Virus record (IMG/VR): IMGVR_UViG_3300032092_000213
Span: 1 to 25,662 of that record
Strand: one strand, 5' to 3'
DNA from: a virus
DNA length: 25,662 nucleotides
Of the stretch, positions 14,101 to 23,938 are shown piece by piece (position 1 is the stretch's first letter; every line of letters begins with the position of its first letter). The notes below the pieces were generated by a model. That model was not told the origin of the DNA and ran no database searches. It saw only the letters and a program-made list of their open reading frames with translations. Made by a program: the position numbers and the translations under genes.

Positions 14101-14360
14101 GCATTTACGAGAGCGAAGTCCCCAGAGCGAATTTGATACAAACTGGGCCTCCTGGTTCTCCCCCACCAATGCGAAAGTTGCCGCCAGCGGCTCCTTCTAA
14201 AGGCGTTCCTGGTCTCTTTGACAAGAAACCTGGTGCGCAGGCCCCTGCTGCTCCCGGCGCTCAGTCGTCAACCAGTCGTGCAATGTTCCAGTCGCTATTC
14301 CCCAATGACTCCATCAGTCCGATGCTGGCGTCTCAGGGTGCTGCACCGCCTGCTGCTTAA
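11106..14360 (+). CDS. Very large internal virion protein candidate, gp16-like by context (1084 aa)
   Basis: At 1084 residues this is the largest gene. Residues about 78-125 form a Gly/Pro-rich hydrophobic stretch (PAAPLGPPLGFVGGLLGGAG), and another hydrophobic region lies near residues 190-230, after which the protein is almost wholly helical with many Lys/Glu/Ala repeats, ending in a Pro-rich tail. No cysteine is present in the whole chain. I see no lytic transglycosylase or peptidase motif, unlike T7 gp16, whose size it approaches. As last gene of the structural operon with membrane-active segments, it may be the main DNA-ejection channel protein. Its last 47 nt overlap the 3' end of the convergent nuclease gene, with no terminator visible between them. 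Confidence 0.55.
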   Translation: MATPEEIQKQLDALTLPDTGGGQPPPALMQGRRPVPATNAADQLKALQQISQSEFPTLGEKGEALGQGIKMGVQENAPISAGGMLGLRAGTMLAPFMGPAAPLGPPLGFVGGLLGGAGVNYALQQMFPEEYEEPPLREDLLSVREGGRTFGTSIAFSPSLYFLPKFTGNRVSRFISSMGESARKSPISFGTAETIAAAGSGTGAFFAEELFPGQKGVRFGAEVTGGIFAPGRFVVNSVGDVTDWAKNLRNSTSASAKEGKAAARLYEILNGTGENIPLLIRRLEQPTTGGATPTAAQKTGNITLSALETSLARTNAEFSGQTVKQGEDSLMAYKLLVQKLREIGTPDALRKAAQMEQDAHTAMLNGRLAAADATAASKIAKISKDTPAARREIGDIVKTETELALRQARDMESELWAEGLRQIAPVKRVQAPPKKVPMEGPEAERIYQKTGQWPMITLRETVVKGAEIKPTNTSRAFLDSTLNIADVVYKNTTPKIVKDIIRTFGIDDASVMKYKLGRNTDEFMETGQVPERFVPRLNEMDVGEMVNYRSNLLSLAREAAGKGEMGDARFYGTLAEGILKDLETLKAPAFDQARNFSKALNDTFTRTFASDVSISGPGAKTMGGAERMPAEILVSRAFGSNADVTAMRMNEIEDSVKFMRTQYDDAVSKFGKRSKQALALKPQADLADIQVASIRDAQDRVYRLAAAKAIDPVTGRLNPRMLEKFAAENQPMLEKLGIYADLQDAKRAELAFRAIQDQNSEINKTIANQSAFAQVLKFENPTNAVIDALNSKFPVKNISNIAKLAGAGGPDAVNGLKSTLFDYAYTKAGGDGRFSIQAFNDALLKPLGQGQPSIVNIMRSQGLITPQEVNNLKRLMIPMMRVEKAMGNKNELNKILDGAGAVEELAMRIVGANIGTSVSGGGPGSLIAASAGSKYVREIFDKMPNFMVRSTIEKALQDPQMMAALLRRGVNKQQEAGFVENFTQLLGRTIATRIPAPLGIYESEVPRANLIQTGPPGSPPPMRKLPPAAPSKGVPGLFDKKPGAQAPAAPGAQSSTSRAMFQSLFPNDSISPMLASQGAAPPAA

Positions 14361-15018
14361 ACTGCTCGACACGCTTCATCCAGGCATCCTTGTGGTTCTG
14401 AAATTCACGGCCAGTGGTCGTGAATTCTTGCGTCGTACCGTTTTGAACGCACACCAGGACAGCCCCAAAATCGATATTCGTGCCGTGGACAATGTCATGG
14501 GCCAAAGCATAGGCGGCAAGTTGATGAAAATAGTCCTCAATCCACTCCGCACGCTTAGGTTTGACTGACTGCTTGAAGTCAACAATGGCTGGTCGCCCAC
14601 GGTACACGCCCACAAAGTCTGTTGTCCCTGCATATTCCCCAGGGTAGTAAAGAGACACCTCGGACCCCCATATTTCTGACATATAGGGAAAGTAAGTGTT
14701 AATTAACTTGTATCCCATCTCATAACCTTTAGTCATAAGCCAGTTAGTTGGACGTGGTAAATCCCTATAAGCAATCATGCGCTCGATGACGTTGTGCATG
14801 TGAGTGCCAATCGTGGCGGCTTCGTTTTTAATACGCTCCGCTTCCTCCTCACCAACCCTCGCGGCCCACGCGTCAAGGTGCGCTCGGTCCTTCGTAGCCG
14901 ACAGGATACGGGTGACGCTTGGCAATCTGTCGTCGCCGTAGACACGTCCCTCAGGTGCGTTTATTTGTTCGAGCTTTTCGTACACATAGAGCTTGCGAAT
15001 GGGGATTAAATCAACCAT
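14314..15018 (-). CDS. PD-(D/E)XK exonuclease, RecB/Cas4-like (234 aa)
   Basis: Motifs of the RecB-like nuclease superfamily are in order: G71-T-H73 with E79 (GTHMHNVIER), E120, G131-T-T-D134, then I145-V-D147-F-K149 as the core D-x-K, and Q166-x-x-x-Y170 (HQLAAY). These would bind Mg and cut DNA, most likely as a 5'-3' or 3'-5' exonuclease that makes single strands for recombination or degrades host DNA. The ATG overlaps the last 13 nt of the SNF2-like gene and has GGAGAGG upstream, so the two are one operon. The 3' end overlaps the convergent structural gene. Its polarity cannot be told from sequence. The length is normal for a compact phage enzyme. Confidence 0.88.
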   Translation of the reverse strand: MVDLIPIRKLYVYEKLEQINAPEGRVYGDDRLPSVTRILSATKDRAHLDAWAARVGEEEAERIKNEAATIGTHMHNVIERMIAYRDLPRPTNWLMTKGYEMGYKLINTYFPYMSEIWGSEVSLYYPGEYAGTTDFVGVYRGRPAIVDFKQSVKPKRAEWIEDYFHQLAAYALAHDIVHGTNIDFGAVLVCVQNGTTQEFTTTGREFQNHKDAWMKRVEQFKQQAVQHPETPASD

Positions 15019-16460
15019 TGTTTAAATTCCTCTCCCATCACCTGGGTGGCAATGTCAATTTTGTCGCGCAGGGCCTTGACAATCTTTTCGTCAATCGTTC
15101 CGACGGCAATCAGGTCAATGTAGGTCACGTTTTTTGTCTGGCCAATGCGGTGCGCCCGGTCTTCCGATTGCAGGCGCTTTTCCAAGTCAAAGCTGTTGCT
15201 GTAGTAGACCATCGTGTGCGCAGCGGTCAGGGTCAAACCATAGCCCCCTGTGCTTGGGTTACCCACAAAGAAGCGCATCTCGCTATTGGGCTTTTGGAAC
15301 TCTTCCAGGACACGTTTTCGCTCGTCGTCGTCAGTGTCCCCGTAGTACATGCCAACAGAGTTCATGCCGTACTCCTTTGACAGGGCCAGCTTGATGGCTT
15401 CGATGTCATGGCGGTAGTTGGCCCAGATGATGATCTTGCCGTCGGTCTCCTCGATAACAGACAGGAGCTCGCCAATCCGGTTGTTGGGCAACTCAATGAC
15501 TTCCCCGTTGTCCAGCTTCACGTGGCCACAGACGATCTGATGCAAACGCATCAGCTGCGTAAGTGCATTGACCGTGCTGGTAACGCCTCCCTCAAACTGG
15601 GACAGCGCCATGGACTTCATTTGCAAGTACGCACGTTTTTGCTCGTCAGTCAAATCCACTTCCCGCTTGACGTACAGCTTATCGGGCAGGTCCAGGCACT
15701 CCTCTTTGGTTACCCGAAAGCTGAAGCGATCAAGCTTCTCCTTGAGCTCGTCCAGCCGGCGGTATCCAACGACCTGTTTGAAGCTGTGAGTCGCCACACT
15801 GCGCTCAATCACAACGGCATAGCGCGCCTGGAACGAGTAGTAGCTTGCCGCATTCAGGCAGTTGGGCGACAAGAAGGCACATTGCTGGTACAAGTCCATG
15901 GGGGACTTGGTCACAGGGGAACCCGTAGCAATGCGCTTGAACCGCGCACCACGGCCCACCTTTTCAGTGCTCTTGGACCGGGCCGAGGTAGGTGTCTTGA
16001 TGGTGGTGCTTTCATCAATCACCATCATGGCGTCATGGCACAGCAAGAACCGGCCAGCGTATTTGGACCCCCTGGCCGTGGAAAACGCCTCAATGTTCAT
16101 GACCAGGATTTTTAGGTCCTCCGTGATGTCAAACAAGCTGTTCAAAGCCTGTTCTTCAGCCTTTCTTGGCTGAGGATTCCATATCGCCATGCGGTATTGC
16201 ACATGTTCGGGTATGTGCTTAGGAATCTCCGTGTCGAACCAGTTTCGGTAGACACCTTTTGGTGCTACGATCAACACCCCGTTTAGCAATCCCTTGTCGT
16301 AGAGCATGGCGAAATTGTTGATGAGCATGTAGCTCTTACCAGTTCCCATATCTGCAAACAAAGCTGCTACCGGGGCGCTCCAGTGGCGTTGAAGGTAAGC
16401 CTGTTGATGGACAAAAGGCTTGTTCCTAAAGGGATAAGTTTCTAAAAAGTTGTCAGTCAT
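15006..16460 (-). CDS. SNF2-like superfamily 2 helicase/translocase (484 aa)
   Basis: Starting at ATG 16460 the product has 484 residues. It shows motif I D37-M-G-T-G-K-S43, motif II D149-E-S-T152 (DExx), motif III T179-G-S-P, then in the second RecA lobe KIIIWANYRHD, NPSTGGYGLTLTAAHTMVYY and EDRAHRIGQTKNVTYIDLI, the SNF2/RapA-type motifs V and VI. Such enzymes translocate on double-stranded DNA and remodel protein-DNA complexes rather than unwind. It lies just upstream of, and overlaps, the nuclease gene, suggesting joint action at DNA ends, replication forks or recombination intermediates. The start was chosen because AGGAAG stands 7 nt upstream; the longer frame to 16592 would run through the divergent promoter and the opposite gene. 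Confidence 0.88.
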   Translation of the reverse strand: MTDNFLETYPFRNKPFVHQQAYLQRHWSAPVAALFADMGTGKSYMLINNFAMLYDKGLLNGVLIVAPKGVYRNWFDTEIPKHIPEHVQYRMAIWNPQPRKAEEQALNSLFDITEDLKILVMNIEAFSTARGSKYAGRFLLCHDAMMVIDESTTIKTPTSARSKSTEKVGRGARFKRIATGSPVTKSPMDLYQQCAFLSPNCLNAASYYSFQARYAVVIERSVATHSFKQVVGYRRLDELKEKLDRFSFRVTKEECLDLPDKLYVKREVDLTDEQKRAYLQMKSMALSQFEGGVTSTVNALTQLMRLHQIVCGHVKLDNGEVIELPNNRIGELLSVIEETDGKIIIWANYRHDIEAIKLALSKEYGMNSVGMYYGDTDDDERKRVLEEFQKPNSEMRFFVGNPSTGGYGLTLTAAHTMVYYSNSFDLEKRLQSEDRAHRIGQTKNVTYIDLIAVGTIDEKIVKALRDKIDIATQVMGEEFKQWLI

Positions 16461-16481
16461 TTCTTTCTTTCTTCCTGGGGG

Positions 16482-16510
16482 TTGCAGTCCAAGTTTTTGT
16501 AGTGTACACT
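16482..16510 (+). promoter_or_regulatory. Candidate promoter of the replication operon (TTGCAG-17-TACACT)
   Basis: TTGCAG at 16482-16487 is followed by 17 bp and TACACT at 16505-16510, with 17 nt from the -10 to an AAGGAG ribosome site before GTG 16539. Each box alone is only a moderate match to sigma70 consensus. The strong support is that the same boxes, spacer and -10 to SD distance recur at 23558-23586. Confidence 0.55.
16501..16510. promoter_or_regulatory. Palindromic operator candidate AGTGTACACT
   Basis: AGTGTACACT is a perfect 10-bp palindrome lying over the -10 box in the 78-bp divergent region, followed by GATCACT so that CACT/AGTG half-sites recur. A dimeric repressor bound here would block the plus-strand promoter. 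Because it is symmetric, it also places a TACACT on the minus strand in front of the helicase gene, though the matching minus -35 (TTTCTA) is weak. Operator status is inference. Confidence 0.4.
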
Positions 16511-16538
16511 GATCACTCATCTTTAGAAAGGAGAATTT

Positions 16539-16898
16539 GTGATAACTGAAAAAAGCGCAACTGTCTACGTGATCCAAGAGACATTGCAGCACAACATATC
16601 AGGCGCGATGGCATATGGGAACATTGAAATAATGCTTCCTGATAATGCTCAGATTGCCTTTTCGAGTGTGCCAACAGTGCGAAGAATTCAACGCAAGTTG
16701 GAAAAATTCAGCGATGCAGATTATTTGTTGTTGATCGGAGACCCCTCTGCCATTGGTATTGCATGCGCTGTTGCCGCATCTAGAAACAATGGTAGATTCA
16801 AGTGCCTCAAGTGGGACAAGCGAGAGAAACGCTACATACCAGTCGAGGTTGATTTATTTAAGAAAGGAGAACCCTATGAGTCTTACGACCCAGTTTGA
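16539..16898 (+). CDS. Conserved phage protein, first gene of replication operon (119 aa)
   Basis: The start is GTG at 16539 with AAAGGAG 6 nt upstream, one of the best ribosome sites in the window. The 119-residue protein contains YGNIEIMLPDNAQIAFSS, PTVRRIQRKLEKFSDADYLL and LIGDPSAIGIACAVAASRN, then KWDKREKRYIPVEVDL. I recognise the order 'GDP.AIG.A.A......R...LKWDr....Y.P.ev' from phage genomes, where it accompanies replication genes, but no function is known to me. It looks like a small alpha/beta protein with no catalytic triad or metal site. It is the first gene after the divergent promoter, so it should be made early. It overlaps the next gene by 23 nt. Confidence 0.7.
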   Translation: MITEKSATVYVIQETLQHNISGAMAYGNIEIMLPDNAQIAFSSVPTVRRIQRKLEKFSDADYLLLIGDPSAIGIACAVAASRNNGRFKCLKWDKREKRYIPVEVDLFKKGEPYESYDPV

Positions 16899-17430
16899 AC
16901 AAGATGCCGATGCTCTCAAAGTACAGGACACCGATTTGGTTGGTGTTGCTGCAATGGCCAAGCGTGCAAAAGAACTCGAGAAAGAATTAGAAGACCTTGA
17001 AGAGACTGTGAAAGAGAGAAAAGCACAGTTTCGTAAGTTGACTGAAGAATCTATTCCAGAGGTGCTGGCGCAGATGAACCTGAGGTCATTCAAAATGGCC
17101 GACGGCTCTTCAATTGAAGTCAAGCCTTTCTACAGCGCATCGATTCCAGAAGCACGCCGTGCGGAAGCCTTTCAATGGCTACGTGAACGTGGCATGGATG
17201 ACATCATTAAGAACACTGTCAGCGTCCGCTTTGGACGTGGCGAAGACGAGCTCTGCTCTCGTCTATTGAATCTGCTTGGTGAGTCCGGCTACCCTGCCGA
17301 ACAAGCCGAGAAGATAGAACCCATGACCCTCAAGGCATGGGTTAAAGAACAGGTGGAACGAGGAAACGAGTTTCCCACCGAACTTTTTGGCGCATTCATT
17401 GGCCAAAAGGCAACCATTAAATCCGCTTAA
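16876..17430 (+). CDS. Conserved phage coiled-coil protein of replication operon (184 aa)
   Basis: The start is ATG 16876, with AAAGGAG 7 nt upstream inside the previous gene; a longer in-frame extension to 16753 would overlap that gene by 146 nt and is not used. Residues 25-60 form a strong coiled coil (AKELEKELEDLEETVKERK). Residues about 65-120 are a mixed domain with KMADGSSIEVKPFYSASIP and a conserved-looking GMDDIIKNTVSVRFGRGED. The C-terminal part ends with FGAFIGQKATIKSA. This layout occurs in many phage replication clusters, next to the SSB-like protein that also follows here. It may bind nucleic acid or an enzyme of the replisome; that is inferred from neighbours only. Confidence 0.7.
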   Translation: MSLTTQFEQDADALKVQDTDLVGVAAMAKRAKELEKELEDLEETVKERKAQFRKLTEESIPEVLAQMNLRSFKMADGSSIEVKPFYSASIPEARRAEAFQWLRERGMDDIIKNTVSVRFGRGEDELCSRLLNLLGESGYPAEQAEKIEPMTLKAWVKEQVERGNEFPTELFGAFIGQKATIKSA

Positions 17431-17451
17431 ACGAAAAAAGGAAATCGAATC

Positions 17452-18225
17452 ATGGCTAAAACAGACGTAGCAACCAAGGACACATCAACTGCAATCGCAA
17501 TGATGAGTAATTTTGAACAAGATGCCGCATCAAGCTTTGCCGGCATGGGCCAGGAAGACTTTGCGCTTCCATTCTTGAAACTGCTCACCAATACTTCTCC
17601 AGAGGTGGGTGAGATTGACGGTGCCTTACCCGGCATGATCTACAACTCCGTGACAGGCGAGTTGTATGACGGCAAGAAGGGCATTACCGTGGTCCCTTGC
17701 GCTTATGTACGTCAGTACATTGAGTGGGCTCCACGCGGCAGTGGTAGCGGTGGTGCACCCATCCATATCTATCCTGCAACCAGCGATATCTTGACAAAGA
17801 CGCATCGCGATCCGTCCGACAACAAAGAGTACTTGGACAACGGCAACTACATTGAGAACACCGCCAATCACTATGTGATGGTGATTGACTCTGCGGGCGT
17901 CCCAAGCCCTGCATTGATTGTGATGAAGTCCACGCAACTCAAGAAGTCGCGCAAGTGGAACAGCATGATGCAGTCAGTGAAGATGCAAGGAGCGAACGGC
18001 ATGTTCACGCCTCCCATGTACAGCCAGATGTATCGCCTGAGCACTGTTGGTGAATCAAACGACAAGGGTAAGTGGTTTGGTTGGGAAATCGAGCGTATTG
18101 GCCAAGTGGACAAAGACGACATTTATCTGAATGCAAAAGCCTTTGCAAACCAGGTGAGCGTTGGCGACGTCAAGGTCAAGCACGAGGGCGATGCTGAATC
18201 CGCAGGAAACAAAGCGCCATTCTGA
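17452..18225 (+). CDS. Conserved phage replication protein, ssDNA-binding candidate (257 aa)
   Basis: The 257-residue protein has a disordered start, then DFALPFLKLLTNTSPEVGE, GALPGMIYNSVTGELYDG, GITVVPCAYVRQYIEW, NHYVMVIDSAGVPSPALIVM and KSRKWNSMMQ, ending in an acidic-polar tail closing with APF. It has alternating beta strands as in an OB-like core. I recognise the family as common in phage replication clusters; it is sometimes labelled single-strand DNA binding, but I cannot confirm that from motifs. The terminal Pro-Phe after a charged tail recalls the SSB tip that recruits partners. Its neighbours are the primase and helicase. AAAGGAA precedes ATG 17452. Confidence 0.65.
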   Translation: MAKTDVATKDTSTAIAMMSNFEQDAASSFAGMGQEDFALPFLKLLTNTSPEVGEIDGALPGMIYNSVTGELYDGKKGITVVPCAYVRQYIEWAPRGSGSGGAPIHIYPATSDILTKTHRDPSDNKEYLDNGNYIENTANHYVMVIDSAGVPSPALIVMKSTQLKKSRKWNSMMQSVKMQGANGMFTPPMYSQMYRLSTVGESNDKGKWFGWEIERIGQVDKDDIYLNAKAFANQVSVGDVKVKHEGDAESAGNKAPF

Positions 18226-18230
18226 TAATC

Positions 18231-18299
18231 GGGGCCAAAAGCGGATGCTGCGTGACTCTGAAGTGAAGCGCATAGTAAGCAGTGCAGCGAGTAGGCCCC
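18231..18299 (+). other. Nested stem structure before the primase gene
   Basis: In the 93-bp gap, GGGGCC (18231-18236) pairs with GGCCCC (18294-18299). Inside it GCTGC (18247-18251) pairs with GCAGC (18284-18288), extendable by two G-U pairs, and ACT/AGT can close an inner 4-nt loop (18255-18264). It is not followed by a T-run, so it is not a terminator, and it has no T-arm, so it is not a tRNA. It may be a structured leader or processing element. It overlaps a 25-codon ORF that offers a rival explanation. Confidence 0.4.
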
Positions 18300-18322
18300 A
18301 CCTACCCGAGAAAGCAGAATGA
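18245..18322 (+). CDS. Possible 25-residue micro-ORF coupled to primase
   Basis: ATG 18245 opens 25 codons ending in a TGA that overlaps the primase start as ATGA (18319-18322), the same junction type used by known genes here. The peptide begins MLRDSEVKRIVSSAASRPH. The primase itself has only a weak ribosome site (GAGAAAGCAG), so termination of this ORF could supply ribosomes to it. The ribosome site of the micro-ORF is also poor. Whether it makes a stable product is open. Confidence 0.35.
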   Translation: MLRDSEVKRIVSSAASRPHLPEKAE

Positions 18323-19848
18323 CCGACATCACACGGTTCAAGGCCATATTCTCTGGACTAGATATTGCCTATGGAACATACAAAATTGAAGGATCGCGCG
18401 GGGATGGAAAGCAGGCCGGGAAGGCCGTTGTTGTCCGCAAACCCCCAACCGACGATCTCTGGGAAAAGCATCTCACCGGTGTTGAACCAAGTCTTGGAAT
18501 TATCCCGATCAGGGCGGATAACTCCTGCATCTGGGGCTGTATTGATATTGACCAGTATCCACTGGATCATGCTGGGCTAGTCAAGAAAATCAAAAGCCTG
18601 GAGTTGCCTCTTGTTGTTTGTCGCAGCAAGTCAGGTGGCGCGCATGTCTTCTTGTTTACCAAGGAGCCTATTGCCGCCGTACGCATGCAAGAGTATTTGA
18701 AATCTTCTGCCGCATTGTTGGGAGAAGCTGGACGCGAAATATTTCCGAAACAAGCCGAGATTTTGGTTGACCGTGGCGACACGGGCAACTTCCTTAACCT
18801 GCCGTATTTCGGTGGTGACCAGACCATGCGCTACGGCATCAAGGAAGACGGCAGTGCCGCTACCTTGGAAGAGTTCTATGAGATGGTCGATGCCAACATA
18901 CAGGGAACTGACCTGGTTGTGCCGGCCCCTCCAAAGAAGTCCGAGCAGGTTATTCCGGACGGCCCTCCTTGTTTGCAGGCCCTGTGCACGCAAGGCATTC
19001 CGGAAGGTGGCAGGAACAATACCCTGTTCAACGTGGGCATCTACCTCAAGAAGATTCACCCTGTTAATTGGGAGAACCCTCTGATTGAGCACAACTTCAA
19101 GTACGTCCACCCGCCGTTGCCAAACAACGAAGTACAGATACTGGTCAAACAACTCAACAAGAAAGACTACCGGTACAAGTGCAAGGACGCGCCGCTCAAT
19201 TCTTTTTGCAACTCTGGACTTTGCAGAACTCGCAAACATGGGGTCGGGGCCAACGGACCTGATGCACCACAACTGTCCTCTTTGTCAAAGTACAACTCCG
19301 AGCCACCACTATGGTTCTTGGATATCAATGGCAAGCGTATCGAGCTCGATACCGATCATCTGTACAACCAAAACATGTTTCAAAAGGCATGCGTTGACAA
19401 GATCAACGTCTTGCCTCCGACGTTGCGCAAACAAGATTGGGAGCAGATGCTCAATGCGTTGCTCAAGGAAATGGTGGAGTCTGAACAGATTCATGAGGCC
19501 ACCGACGACACAAGCATCACAGGACGCTTTGTGGACCTGCTGGAAGAGTTCTGTACTCACTTGCAACAGGCCATGGACCGCGATGAGATTTTGCTTGGCC
19601 GCCCCTGGACAGATGAAGAAGAAGCCAAGACCTATTTCCGCATGAAGGATTTAGAAGCTCACCTGAAGCGCAACAACTTCGTGGGCCTGACCGCTCCGAA
19701 GATGGCACAACGTCTACGAGACCTTGGTGGAGAACCCATTCCACTGTTCCTCAAGGGCCGCGCAACACGGTGCTGGCGCTTGCCAGGATTCAAGAAACAA
19801 GACGCGCCTTTTAACACCCCCGAACAAAAGAAACGGAGCCCATTTTGA
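18319..19848 (+). CDS. Archaeo-eukaryotic primase, TOTE-type AEP (509 aa)
   Basis: The catalytic AEP residues are visible: D76-I-D78 in CIDIDQY, then S105-G-G-A-H109 in KSGGAHVFLF, and E140-I-F-P-K-Q145 with NFLNLPYFGG, the pattern I know for the primase domain of TOTE conflict systems. This domain would make primers, or act as a primase-polymerase, on phage single-stranded DNA. Residues 215-310 hold PPCLQALC, GGRNNTLFNVGIYLKK and a Cys group C288, C297, C302, which with C218 and C223 may form a metal or iron-sulphur site. The C-terminal 190 residues are helical and resemble a helicase-loading or winged-helix region. The protein ends in SPF. A small protein and a UvrD-like helicase follow. 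There is no DnaG/TOPRIM primase in the window. Confidence 0.85.
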   Translation: MTDITRFKAIFSGLDIAYGTYKIEGSRGDGKQAGKAVVVRKPPTDDLWEKHLTGVEPSLGIIPIRADNSCIWGCIDIDQYPLDHAGLVKKIKSLELPLVVCRSKSGGAHVFLFTKEPIAAVRMQEYLKSSAALLGEAGREIFPKQAEILVDRGDTGNFLNLPYFGGDQTMRYGIKEDGSAATLEEFYEMVDANIQGTDLVVPAPPKKSEQVIPDGPPCLQALCTQGIPEGGRNNTLFNVGIYLKKIHPVNWENPLIEHNFKYVHPPLPNNEVQILVKQLNKKDYRYKCKDAPLNSFCNSGLCRTRKHGVGANGPDAPQLSSLSKYNSEPPLWFLDINGKRIELDTDHLYNQNMFQKACVDKINVLPPTLRKQDWEQMLNALLKEMVESEQIHEATDDTSITGRFVDLLEEFCTHLQQAMDRDEILLGRPWTDEEEAKTYFRMKDLEAHLKRNNFVGLTAPKMAQRLRDLGGEPIPLFLKGRATRCWRLPGFKKQDAPFNTPEQKKRSPF

Positions 19849-20120
19849 ATGATGATGAACGCCCCCTGAAGATGGATAACTTTGAAGATTGCTTCATAGG
19901 CACTTGTTGCACATGGCACGGCAATCAAAGAGTCGAGCGGCTGATATACAGCGGCGACAAGATGGTGGACAAGCTCACCGCAGAGGAAGACGGCATGGAC
20001 ATACATGAGGCCTTGGAGTACATCGAGTTCAATATCGAAGGTGCTTACGTAGGTCCGCATACTCCGATCATCTTGTGGGAATGCACCCTGGAAGATATCG
20101 AGGAACGTTATGGAGATTAG
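19845..20120 (+). CDS. Conserved small phage protein between primase and helicase (91 aa)
   Basis: The start is TTG 19845 in a TTGA overlap with the primase stop, supported by GGAG seven bases upstream; the next in-frame ATG is nine residues on. The 91-residue acidic protein has FEDCFIGTC, then a Tyr/Asp-containing segment (LIYSGDKMVDKLTAEEDGMD), HEALEYIEFNIEGAYVG and TPIILWEC. I recognise the 'dgm...EA.Eyfefn..gayvG..tP' order from many phages, always as a hypothetical protein. It has four cysteines but not in a clear metal-site spacing. It overlaps the helicase start by 11 nt. It may be an accessory replication factor, inferred from location only. Confidence 0.7.
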   Translation: MNDDERPLKMDNFEDCFIGTCCTWHGNQRVERLIYSGDKMVDKLTAEEDGMDIHEALEYIEFNIEGAYVGPHTPIILWECTLEDIEERYGD

Positions 20121-21612
20121 AAAAATCTTCGGCCCTCCCGGCTCTGGCAAGACGACGTTCTTACTGAATATCGTTGAGCAGGAACTGGGGGACGGCGTTC
20201 CCTCATTGAACATTGGCTACTTTTCTTTCACCAAGAAGGCGGCCAACGAAGCACGGGACCGCGCCATCGCCAAATTCCCATCGCTCAATCCAGACCTTGA
20301 CTTCCCCTGGTTTCGCACACTTCACAGTCTGGCCTACCGCTGTCTTGGCATCGGCACAAAAGACATGATGTCGCCAGAAGACTACAAGGCCTTTGCCAAA
20401 GAAGCCGGCATTGAACTCTCCATCGAGAACGGTGACGAGGACTTCATGGTGAAGGTGGACAACCCAATCCTGAACGAGATCAACATCGCACGGATCAAGG
20501 GCCTGGACCTACGCACGCACTACAACCAAAGCAGCATGGACATTGAGTGGTTCCACTTTGAGTTTGTGGAGCGCGCTTACAGGCACTACAAGCAAAGCAG
20601 AGCGCTCTTAGACTTCACTGACCTGCTTGAGCAGATCGTGCACCAACCTGAGCGGCTCCCTAAACTGGACGCGCTGATCATCGACGAGGCACAAGACCTC
20701 TCCCGTTTGCAGTGGGACTTGGTGACAGAGTTGGCCAAGAGGTCAAAGCGTTCTTTTTTAGCCGGGGATGATGACCAGGCCGTCTATAACTGGGCAGGGG
20801 CCGACGTCGATAGTTTTCTAAACTTTAACGGCGCAATCACCATCCTCGATCAATCGTACCGCGTGCCTGCCAAAATCCACGCGATTGCAAACACCATTGT
20901 GCACCGCATCAAAAAGCGCCAGCCAAAGGTTTGGAAAGCCCGCGAAGAAGAGGGCCACATCCATTACTACAACGACTTCTCCCATGTGGACATCAGCCAC
21001 GGCAACTGGCTAATTCTTGCCAGTACCAACTACATGCTCTCGGAGATGCACACCTGGATCAAAAGCCAGGGCTTGCTGTTCGAGCGCCACGGACAACGGA
21101 GCATCTCAGAAGGCATCCTGTCTGCCGTGTTGGGCTGGGAGAACCTGCGACGCGGCAAAGAATTGCCGTTTCCCGTTATCAAAAACATCTACAAGTATTT
21201 GGGCTCCGACTTTGTCAAGCACGGGTACAAAGGATTACGGCTCGCGGACCCTAATGGTGCGTACAGTATAGAACGCCTGCGACAAGAACAAGGGCTCCTG
21301 GCCCCCGACATCATTTGGCACGAGGCATTGCTCAAGATCGGTGAAGACAAACGCGACTACATCATCGCCCTCTTGCGGCGCGGCACAAAGCTCACGGGAG
21401 CTATTCCAATTAAGCTGTCCACGATCCACGGAGCCAAGGGTGGCGAGGCGGACAACGTGTTACTGCTCGGGGACCTTTCCACGCGCTTTGCCAAGGAGTA
21501 CGAGCGCAACTCAGACGACGTGAACCGACTGCTGTATGTGGGCATCACGCGCGCCAAGCAAGCACTGCACTACGTGCTTCCAAAGAATGAATTAAAGGGG
21601 TTTCGCCTGTGA
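20110..21612 (+). CDS. UvrD/PcrA-like superfamily 1 DNA helicase (500 aa)
   Basis: All SF1A helicase motifs are readable: Walker A G8-P-P-G-S-G-K-T-T16, motif Ia near FRTLHSLAY (68-76), Walker B I190-I-D-E-A-Q195, motif III G219-D-D-D-Q-A-V-Y-N-W-A-G-A-D, motif IV QSYRVP (248-253), motif V STIHGAKGGEADNVLLL (437-453) and motif VI LLYVGITRAK (474-483). It should unwind DNA 3' to 5' with ATP. At 500 residues it is shorter than UvrD or PcrA (about 720), with reduced 1B/2B insertions. It lies between the primase and the polymerase, starts inside the previous gene and ends in a GTGA overlap with the polymerase, so it is probably a replisome helicase. Confidence 0.93.
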   Translation: MEIRKIFGPPGSGKTTFLLNIVEQELGDGVPSLNIGYFSFTKKAANEARDRAIAKFPSLNPDLDFPWFRTLHSLAYRCLGIGTKDMMSPEDYKAFAKEAGIELSIENGDEDFMVKVDNPILNEINIARIKGLDLRTHYNQSSMDIEWFHFEFVERAYRHYKQSRALLDFTDLLEQIVHQPERLPKLDALIIDEAQDLSRLQWDLVTELAKRSKRSFLAGDDDQAVYNWAGADVDSFLNFNGAITILDQSYRVPAKIHAIANTIVHRIKKRQPKVWKAREEEGHIHYYNDFSHVDISHGNWLILASTNYMLSEMHTWIKSQGLLFERHGQRSISEGILSAVLGWENLRRGKELPFPVIKNIYKYLGSDFVKHGYKGLRLADPNGAYSIERLRQEQGLLAPDIIWHEALLKIGEDKRDYIIALLRRGTKLTGAIPIKLSTIHGAKGGEADNVLLLGDLSTRFAKEYERNSDDVNRLLYVGITRAKQALHYVLPKNELKGFRL

Positions 21613-23474
21613 AAACAATGCCTATGTTTCCAACACTCACTGAGTGGGTGCCACCGGAAACTTTCCCTAACCTGTCCACCGCCAAGGAGATTGCAATTGA
21701 CCTCGAAACTTGTGACCCGCATATGGAATCTTTTGGGCCGGGATGGCCCCGTAATGACGGCTTCATTGCTGGTTACGCTGTGGCTGTTGACGGTTGGAGC
21801 GGATACTATCCTGTTGCTCATGGCGGTGGTGGCAATCTTGATAAACGTCTTGTTGAGCGGTGGGTAAAAGATGTCTTGGCTACTGACGCTGACAAGATCA
21901 TGCATAACGCGGCTTATGACTGCGGTTGGCTTAGGGCCAATGGATTCACCGTCAACGGGCGAATACTTGACACCATGCTTGCTGCCCCACTACTGGATGA
22001 GAACCGCTTCTCGTACAGCCTCAATGCGCTTGGCTTCGATTATCTTAAAGAGGTCAAGTCCGAGGCCGCTCTCAAACAGGCTGCTGCCGACTTTGGCGTT
22101 CATCCCAAGAAAGAATTATGGAAGCTACCCGCCATGTACGTCGGAGAGTACGCCGAGCAAGACGCGGCGCTGACCCTGAAACTGTGGCAACACTTTAAGA
22201 CCAAGATGCGCCAAGACGAAGTTGAATCAATCTTCGACCTGGAGACAGCCGCCTTTCCAGTGCTGTTGGAGCTCACCTTGAAGGGCATTCGCTTTGACCG
22301 AGAAAGGTGTGAACAGACTATCCACAAACTTATCCAACGGGAAAAGGCCATCTTTGCAGAGCTCAAGTCTTTGTGTGGAGGAACTGTGGATATCTGGGCG
22401 GCCGCAAGCATCGCCCATTCGTTTGACAAGTTGGGGATTGCTTATGGCAAGACCGCCGCCGGCGCGGCAAGCTTTACAAAAGGCTTTCTCGATTCCTGCG
22501 ACCACCCCGTGGCCAAGCTGATTGTCGAAGCGCGCGAGACCAACAAGACCCACAGCACGTTCTTGCAGCCTTACCTCGACTTCAGCGCCAAGACAGGCAG
22601 AATCCACCCACACGTGAACCAGATGCGCAACGACGAAGGCGGCACGATCACGGGCCGTCTGTCTATGAACAGTCCCAACCTCCAACAAGTGCCCGCGCGC
22701 CACGAGATCATCGGGCCCATGGTGCGCTCACTCTTCCTACCTGAAGAAGGGCAGATGTGGGCGGCCAACGACTTCTCGTCCCAAGAACCACGGCTCTTGG
22801 TGCATTACGCCACGCTCTTGGACCTGCCCGGTGCAGAGAAGATGGCCGAGGCCTACCGGGAAAATCCCGATACCGACTTTCACCAAATGATTGCCGATAT
22901 GGCCGGAATCAAGCGAAAGCAAGCCAAGACCATTGGCCTGGGCCTGATGTACGGCATGGGCAAAGCAAAGCTGGCGCATGAGTTGGACCTGCCCGTGGAA
23001 GAGGCCAGCGAGTTGATTGGCACCTTTCACACCAAGGTGCCTTTCCTTAAAGGAACTGTGAACGCGGTCATGAAGCGGATCGAACATCCAGCGTCTGGTG
23101 GGTCCGTCAGGACGCTCCTGGGACGCAAATGCCGCTTCCCGTTGTACGAGCCGGTGCAGTGGGGCGTGAACAAGGCGCTTCCCTACGAGCAGGCCATCGT
23201 GGAATACGGCCCAAGGATCAAGCGCGCGGCTACCTACAAGGGACTGAACAAGCTGATCCAGGGGTCAGCCGCCGACCAGACCAAAGCGGCCATGGTGGCC
23301 TTGCACAAGGCGGGGTTTCACTTGATGCTCCAGGTTCACGACGAGATCGCCCTGAGTGTCAACACGCCTGAGGAAGCACGCGAAGCGGCCCATATCATGG
23401 CAACCGCCGTTGACTTGGAAGTCCCGTCCCGGGTGGACGTGGAGATGGGCCCAAGCTGGGGTGAGGCCAAGTAA
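21609..23474 (+). CDS. Family A DNA polymerase with 3'-5' exonuclease (621 aa)
   Basis: The N-terminal proofreading domain has D31-L-E33, N100-x-x-x-D104 (HNAAYDCGWL) and Y181-x-x-x-D185. The polymerase domain has TITGRLSMNSPNLQQVP (346-362), motif A D388-F-S-S-Q-E393-P-R, motif B R436-K-Q-A-K440-TIG-L444-GLM-Y448-G, and motif C H577-D-E579. All catalytic residues are intact. Leu444 equals Phe762 of E. coli Pol I. At 621 residues with no 5'-3' exonuclease domain, it is a typical phage replicative polymerase. The start is GTG overlapping the helicase stop; an ATG three codons on is an alternative. It is the last gene before a strong terminator. Confidence 0.95.
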   Translation: MKTMPMFPTLTEWVPPETFPNLSTAKEIAIDLETCDPHMESFGPGWPRNDGFIAGYAVAVDGWSGYYPVAHGGGGNLDKRLVERWVKDVLATDADKIMHNAAYDCGWLRANGFTVNGRILDTMLAAPLLDENRFSYSLNALGFDYLKEVKSEAALKQAAADFGVHPKKELWKLPAMYVGEYAEQDAALTLKLWQHFKTKMRQDEVESIFDLETAAFPVLLELTLKGIRFDRERCEQTIHKLIQREKAIFAELKSLCGGTVDIWAAASIAHSFDKLGIAYGKTAAGAASFTKGFLDSCDHPVAKLIVEARETNKTHSTFLQPYLDFSAKTGRIHPHVNQMRNDEGGTITGRLSMNSPNLQQVPARHEIIGPMVRSLFLPEEGQMWAANDFSSQEPRLLVHYATLLDLPGAEKMAEAYRENPDTDFHQMIADMAGIKRKQAKTIGLGLMYGMGKAKLAHELDLPVEEASELIGTFHTKVPFLKGTVNAVMKRIEHPASGGSVRTLLGRKCRFPLYEPVQWGVNKALPYEQAIVEYGPRIKRAATYKGLNKLIQGSAADQTKAAMVALHKAGFHLMLQVHDEIALSVNTPEEAREAAHIMATAVDLEVPSRVDVEMGPSWGEAK

Positions 23475-23524
23475 AGGTATGATTGAGGGGAAGCTTCTTG
23501 CAGTTGCTTCAGTCAGTCTCCTTT

Positions 23525-23556
23525 ATAGGCTAGGGTAACTCCTAGCCTATTTTTTT
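23525..23556 (+). terminator. Intrinsic terminator after DNA polymerase gene
   Basis: ATAGGCTAGG (23525-23534) and CCTAGCCTAT (23541-23550) form a perfect 10-bp stem with a 6-nt loop, followed by a run of seven T (23550-23556). This is a textbook Rho-independent terminator 50 bp after the polymerase stop. It ends the replication operon and sits directly before the next promoter. Confidence 0.93.
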
Positions 23557-23557
23557 G

Positions 23558-23586
23558 TTGCACGATTTAAAGATTTTCGATACACT
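23558..23586 (+). promoter_or_regulatory. Candidate early-operon promoter (TTGCAC-17-TACACT)
   Basis: TTGCAC (23558-23563), a 17-bp spacer and TACACT (23581-23586) begin one base after the terminator T-run. AAGGAG starts 17 nt after the -10 and ATG 23615 follows. The box pair, spacer and -10 to SD distance equal those at 16482-16510, and the base after the -10 is G in both. A promoter is required here because the terminator isolates the downstream genes. Confidence 0.7.
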
Positions 23587-23614
23587 GCAAGCCAGATCAC
23601 AGAAAGGAGAGTCA

Positions 23615-23938
23615 ATGACTTTAAAGAAACCAGGAAGAAACATTCCGCCCGTACAGCGCATCAAGCCTTGGATGTCCGTTGCTATTCGCATGGAGACTTA
23701 CGCCAAGCTGAGAGAAATGAGCGAGTTCTATGGCAGGGGCATGGGGGACCAGATGCAAATCTTGGTAGACCCGGCGTTCGAGATTGCATTAAAAGCGGCC
23801 GAAGAACGAGAGGCCATCATCGAGAGTGGTGAAACACCCCCACCAAAACCCAAGCCAAAAGCGCGTCTCAAAAAAGGTAAACAGGTTGCTAAACATGTAC
23901 AAGTCAAACGTCCAGTTGTCCGTAAATATCATCTTTGA
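23615..23938 (+). CDS. Putative ribbon-helix-helix DNA-binding protein (107 aa)
   Basis: ATG 23615 has an AAAGGAG 5 nt upstream, and the product has 107 residues; the longer frame to 23555 runs through the promoter and is not used. Residues about 19-60 read as a beta strand (MSVAIRM), a helix (ETYAKLREMSEFYG), a Gly turn (RGMG) and a second helix (DQMQILVDPAFEIAL). This matches a ribbon-helix-helix (Arc/MetJ/CopG) domain, which dimerises through the strand and reads palindromes. The last 35 residues are a Pro/Lys/Arg-rich tail (PPPKPKPKARLKKGK) likely to bind DNA nonspecifically. As first gene after the early promoter it could be the phage regulator, perhaps acting on the TACACTG/AGTGTACACT elements. 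This is inference from fold pattern and position. Confidence 0.6.
   Translation: MTLKKPGRNIPPVQRIKPWMSVAIRMETYAKLREMSEFYGRGMGDQMQILVDPAFEIALKAAEEREAIIESGETPPPKPKPKARLKKGKQVAKHVQVKRPVVRKYHL

Follow-up and report, generated by a model that had tools for sequence, protein, structure and literature searches.

Two sites in the window (the whole stretch of DNA analysed, a 25.7-kb virus record) share one layout of promoter boxes and ribosome site, and both are likely to be promoters of the host σ70 type: the second (hereinafter designated site 2) plain and one-way, the first (hereinafter designated site 1) compact and bidirectional, with a dyad over its -35 element that would be transcribed as a hairpin in the helicase mRNA. 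Comparison with related viruses makes a conserved bidirectional promoter, one switch for genes in both directions, the best reading of site 1. The divergent arrangement and the -10 element readable from both strands formed no part of an earlier note on this DNA; the new promoter class claimed there is not borne out, and the first site is more interesting than the second.

Plus-strand genes run up to 14360 and are followed by a two-gene minus operon, a plus-strand replication operon, a terminator and a further plus operon from 23615 (Table 1). Site 1 (16461-16538) sits between the divergent SNF2-like helicase/exonuclease operon on the minus strand and the replication operon on the plus strand, the latter (16539-23474) encoding gp32-like, gp33-like and gp34-like proteins, a primase, a UvrD-like helicase and the DNA polymerase.

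Table 1 Genes and predicted promoter, ribosome-site and RNA features around the two sites
Feature	Positions	Strand	Remarks
PD-(D/E)XK-type exonuclease	14314..15018	-	Second gene of minus operon; phrog_298, E=6.4e-53
SNF2-like helicase	15006..16460	-	First gene of minus operon; phrog_62, E=5.6e-121; start codon 16460
Predicted hairpin, 5' end of minus transcript	16474..16493	-	CUUGG (16493-16489), 10-nt loop, CCAGG (16478-16474)
Site 1 plus -35, TTGCAG	16482..16487	+	TTGACA in some relatives
Site 1 minus -10, TACACT	16501..16506	-	Overlaps plus -10 in palindrome AGTGTACACT (16501-16510); predicted start ~16494
Site 1 plus -10, TACACT	16505..16510	+	Spacer 17; predicted start ~16517
Tentative minus -35, TTTCTA	16524..16529	-	Weak, 3/6 to consensus; overlaps plus-strand ribosome site
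Site 1 ribosome site AGAAAGGAG	16525..16533	+	14 nt past -10 (AAGGAG at 17 nt)
Pam3 gp32-like protein	16539..16898	+	First gene of replication operon; PF23992 E=3e-28, phrog_5888
DNA polymerase	21609..23474	+	Last gene of plus operon; phrog_17, E=8.3e-117
Intrinsic terminator	23525..23556	+	11-bp stem (23525-23550) then T run; strongest terminator-like site of this half
Site 2 -35, TTGCAC	23558..23563	+	Behind DNA-polymerase operon terminator
Site 2 -10, TACACT	23581..23586	+	One-way: TCGA before -10, no A at -4; predicted start ~23593
Site 2 ribosome site AGAAAGGAG	23601..23609	+	Ahead of gene at 23615

TTGCA-N18-TACACT occurs exactly twice in the window, at 16482-16510 and 23558-23586, and at both sites AAGGAG begins 17 nt past TACACT (16528 and 23604) as part of the shared sequence AGAAAGGAG, which is used also at 16861, there without such a promoter ahead. 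The identical spacing at two levels, to which the earlier note had drawn attention, is confirmed: chance would yield 0.09 matches to TTGCA-N16-20-TACACT in the window, and none of 100 shuffles held two. Since the pattern was chosen post hoc, conservation in relatives is stronger evidence than this estimate. That one site arose as a recent copy of the other is not supported, the spacers being identical at just 2 of 18 bases and the sites otherwise unrelated outside the boxes. Read as hexamers, both sites are TTGCAn-N17-TACACT, which is the optimal σ70 spacing; agreement between the sites in this respect is therefore less remarkable than at first sight. The boxes are moderate σ70 matches, as had been proposed (-35, 3/6; -10, 4/6; in total 7/12 consensus bases at each site), and a consensus promoter scan requiring 9/12 reports neither site.

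Relatives were gathered by DNA polymerase, by the pattern and by the gp32-like protein. Of 109 distinct helicase/gp32 intergenic regions, orthologous to that of site 1, 104 have the promoter layout, with a gap of 14 between the -10 and a AGAAAGGAG-type ribosome site in 90 of the 104. Twelve of these 104 sequences carry TTGACA in place of TTGCA, which identifies the box as a -35 element. The spacer is 17 or 18 for TTGCA/TTGCG and 16 or 19 for TTGACA. Nine relatives (L237, L242, L246, L247, L252, L262, L014, L016 and L025) combine the stronger TTGACA with the poorer spacers (19/16), whereas TTGCA goes with 17/18, as if promoter strength were held moderate. A MerR-type promoter with a 19-bp spacer was considered for the TTGACA-N19 variants and rejected, the dyad being centred on the -35 and not in the spacer. 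A scan of viral contigs (spacers 10-26, gaps 5-30) gives, among the matches listed, sharp peaks at spacer 18/19 and gap 14, nearly all of them in the two orthologous places, site 1 and site 2. The earlier note had taken lack of conservation in related phages as evidence against itself; on checking, the boxes proved conserved. Judged from the relatives, both sites are under selection, and both look like promoters of the operons downstream.

The five regions without a recognised layout are those of marine (pelagiphage-like) relatives (L057, L059, L066, L067 and L071), in which the helicase/gp32 gap holds TTGACA and TGTCAA facing each other; these viruses apparently rely on a pair of TTGACA promoters that overlap completely in opposite orientation, not on a shared -10. 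In PaMx11, RHph_I65, Bhz59 and Pam3 (L279, L280, L282 and L283) the helicase, gp32, gp33 and gp34 homologues are co-directional. Because helicase and gp32 are co-directional there, we propose that the divergent order in the window's lineage may be derived by inversion of a helicase/nuclease cassette. The closest named genome (DNA polymerase 76% identical) is that of Phage DSL-LC04, an uncultured phage whose genome was assembled from Dishui Lake and which is placed in the proposed 'Dishuiviridae' (PMC10611076). Its gene order is divergent as in the window, and it carries TTGCA-N18-TACACT-N14-AGAAAGGAG once, without the window's second copy after the DNA polymerase. The word promoter is absent from the main text of the paper describing it (PMC10611076).

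Only near relatives (polymerase ~90% or above) retain site 2, and the spacers there have diverged. Variants of the site include TTGCG (L009) and, in a 79% relative (L012), a shifted spacing; more distant relatives have other sequences at this position. Another group of relatives (L024, L032, L033, L035 and L042) shows, between the polymerase stop and an AGAAAGGAG site, an imperfect inverted repeat (GTATAT...ATATAC) that encloses a possible TANNNT; this could be some other promoter, or an operator.

The 10-mer at the site 1 -10 is AGTGTACACT in 69 of the 104 distinct sequences, AGTCTACACT in 15 and AGTATACACT in 5; AGTGTACAGT, ATTGTACACT and AGTGTATCAT occur 4 times each, along with three singletons. 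Through all this variation, TANNNT is kept on the minus strand in 103/104, the minus hexamer being TACACT, TAGACT, TATACT, TACAAT or TATATT, all of the TANNNT form. Several 10-mer variants break the palindrome, which favours two hexamers over one operator. Among 27 representatives whose leaders score below 72% similarity to one another, A stands at -4 before TACACT in 26, against a background of 33%; at site 2, with a terminator upstream and no divergent gene, the base is T, not A, in 11/11. Placing +1 seven nt past each -10 predicts divergent starts 23 bp apart. Common start spacings of bidirectional bacterial promoters are given as 18, 10 and 23 bp (PMC12825309; see also PMC10268837; both cite Warman et al. 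2021). The candidate minus -35 averages 3.26 consensus matches in the representatives against 2.46 ± 0.18 in shuffled sequences, a difference confounded by overlap with the AGAAAGG Shine-Dalgarno sequence; even so, 4/6 positions match in three members whose ribosome site is displaced.

The plus -35 of site 1 falls in the loop of a dyad, that is, of a predicted minus-strand hairpin. Its arms change across relatives (CAGGG/CCCTG, CAGGAC/GTCCTG, CGGGG/CCCCG, CGGAC/GTCCG, GAGCACT/AGTGTTC and others), and in most representatives the first arm has its first base between +1 and +4 of the predicted helicase transcript. When halves were swapped between lineages among the 27 representatives, the mean energy was -3.95 ± 0.36 kcal/mol as compared with -6.28 kcal/mol for the native sequences, and 0 of 300 swaps reached the native hairpin energy; the arms co-vary. 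The hairpin in the window itself is weak (-4.2 kcal/mol). A column-based consensus fold of the site 1 relatives yields no structure and a fixed-register pair count is weak, shifted registers scoring equally well, because the stems shift by one or two bases and the loop length varies. Rfam returned nothing relevant, its one weak match (mir-208) lying far below the cut-off. The dyad spans ~15-19 nt with a loop of 3-12 nt, and such variation in span speaks for an RNA hairpin rather than a fixed operator bound by a dimer; the dyad is probably the 5'-terminal hairpin of the helicase mRNA. Emory, Bouvet and Belasco (1992, among the references of PMC3997798) reportedly found that 5'-terminal stem-loops stabilise mRNA in E. 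coli, as in the ompA and papA leaders.

Four other explanations can be set against this reading, two of which concern both sites. The first, that weak σ70-like sequences agree here by coincidence, draws on the moderate boxes and on a pattern picked after the fact; given the expectation of 0.09 and boxes conserved inside diverged spacers, we regard its probability as negligible. The other is a phage-specific class, in which a dedicated activator or a modified polymerase reads TTGCA-N18-TACACT together with a fixed ribosome-site distance. The two matching copies in the window and near relatives and the strict 17-nt distance to AAGGAG fit such a class, but copy number rules out its genome-wide form. 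The count covers 16 relatives (40-63 kb), namely the complete DSL-LC04 and viral contigs for the most part of unestablished completeness: 14 have a single TTGCA-N16-20-TACACT and 2 have none, and the sole copy is always the divergent helicase/gp32 site. The reversed-pattern control gives one match in all, and when 2 mismatches are tolerated its counts are roughly those of the motif. Because the motif is present at most once per relative genome, as against two copies in the window, it is not a genome-wide promoter class, and the further copies ahead of operons that the earlier note had looked to were not found in the 16 relatives. Sigma region 4 homologues were found in none of 10 relatives and in 14/14 control genomes; a search for T7-type RNA polymerase had no match in the relatives and none in the controls either, which thus provided no positive control. 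TTGACA in the same region of relatives, together with the sigma region 4 result, counts against a modified polymerase and makes a host σ70-type polymerase the best explanation. The distance to the ribosome site is held while the intervening sequence drifts, which a short leader explains equally, and a phage-specific class is on balance very unlikely. A sigma-G-like factor was also considered: DSL-LC04 carries an annotated 'RNA polymerase sigma-G factor', and the window counterpart (19845-20120) matches only phrog_13182 (function not known), with no Pfam family and no sigma homology, for which reason the annotation is probably wrong.

The remaining two concern site 1. It might be a one-way plus promoter with an incidentally palindromic -10, the helicase operon relying on read-through or on a promoter within gp32. 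The weak minus -35 is compatible with this, but the minus-strand TANNNT is kept in all but one of the distinct sequences, a σ70-like scan reports no minus-strand site in 16463-16900, and the marine relatives differ, with inverted TTGACA boxes in the same gap; we consider a one-way site 1 improbable. Alternatively, the dyad might be a DNA operator for a phage repressor with drifting specificity. It covers the -35, many versions are near-perfect palindromes centred on TTGCAA, and a G-U versus A-C test, at 8 to 6, does not separate RNA from DNA. Against this, span and loop vary, unlike a fixed dimer site, the dyad position tracks the predicted minus start, and no repressor gene was identified in the window. 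An operator is thus unlikely, though it deserves some weight. The same evidence divides the earlier suggestion of a dedicated regulator: the dyad over the -35 speaks for it at site 1 only, and the variable span speaks against a conserved dimeric operator.

For the preferred reading, a host σ70-type promoter at each site, we envisage that transcription would restart at site 2 behind the DNA-polymerase terminator, and that at site 1 sigma would engage one shared near-symmetric -10 from either strand. In the plus orientation this would produce the replication operon transcript from ~16517, and in the minus orientation the SNF2-helicase/exonuclease transcript from ~16494, whose dyad copy would form a hairpin at the helicase mRNA 5' end, probably slowing decay. 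More tentatively, and with considerable doubt, site 1 could be a double-duty element: a shared -10, a plus -35 placed in the stabilising hairpin of the minus mRNA and a minus -35 placed in the plus ribosome site would couple the amounts of replication and recombination proteins without a regulator protein. As far as the sequences tell, the kinds of component are already known and the nesting of the parts, as predicted here, is unusual. If the reading is right, the relatives would amount to a natural collection of about a hundred versions of a single bidirectional promoter, changed independently on the two strands, which would serve tests of how sigma chooses its orientation and how two operons are balanced, and a promoter box and an mRNA 5' structure would be evolving under joint constraint.

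Site 1 resembles the bidirectional σ70 promoters of bacteria in its shared near-symmetric -10 and in the distance between its predicted starts. Unlike them, it is in a phage, joins two whole operons, is predicted from sequence, and has one direction's -35 within the other's predicted 5' hairpin. As in the 5'-terminal stem-loops of ompA and papA, a short stem-loop would lie between the ribosome site and the predicted 5' end, at most a few nt from the latter; the predicted hairpin of site 1 differs from those leaders in also containing an opposite-strand promoter element. Both sites are similar to the host-read σ70 promoters of phages without their own polymerase, in the elements (TTG..., 17-18 bp, TANNNT) as well as in their position near operon starts and behind a terminator, and differ from them in that TTGCAn replaces TTGACA in most members.
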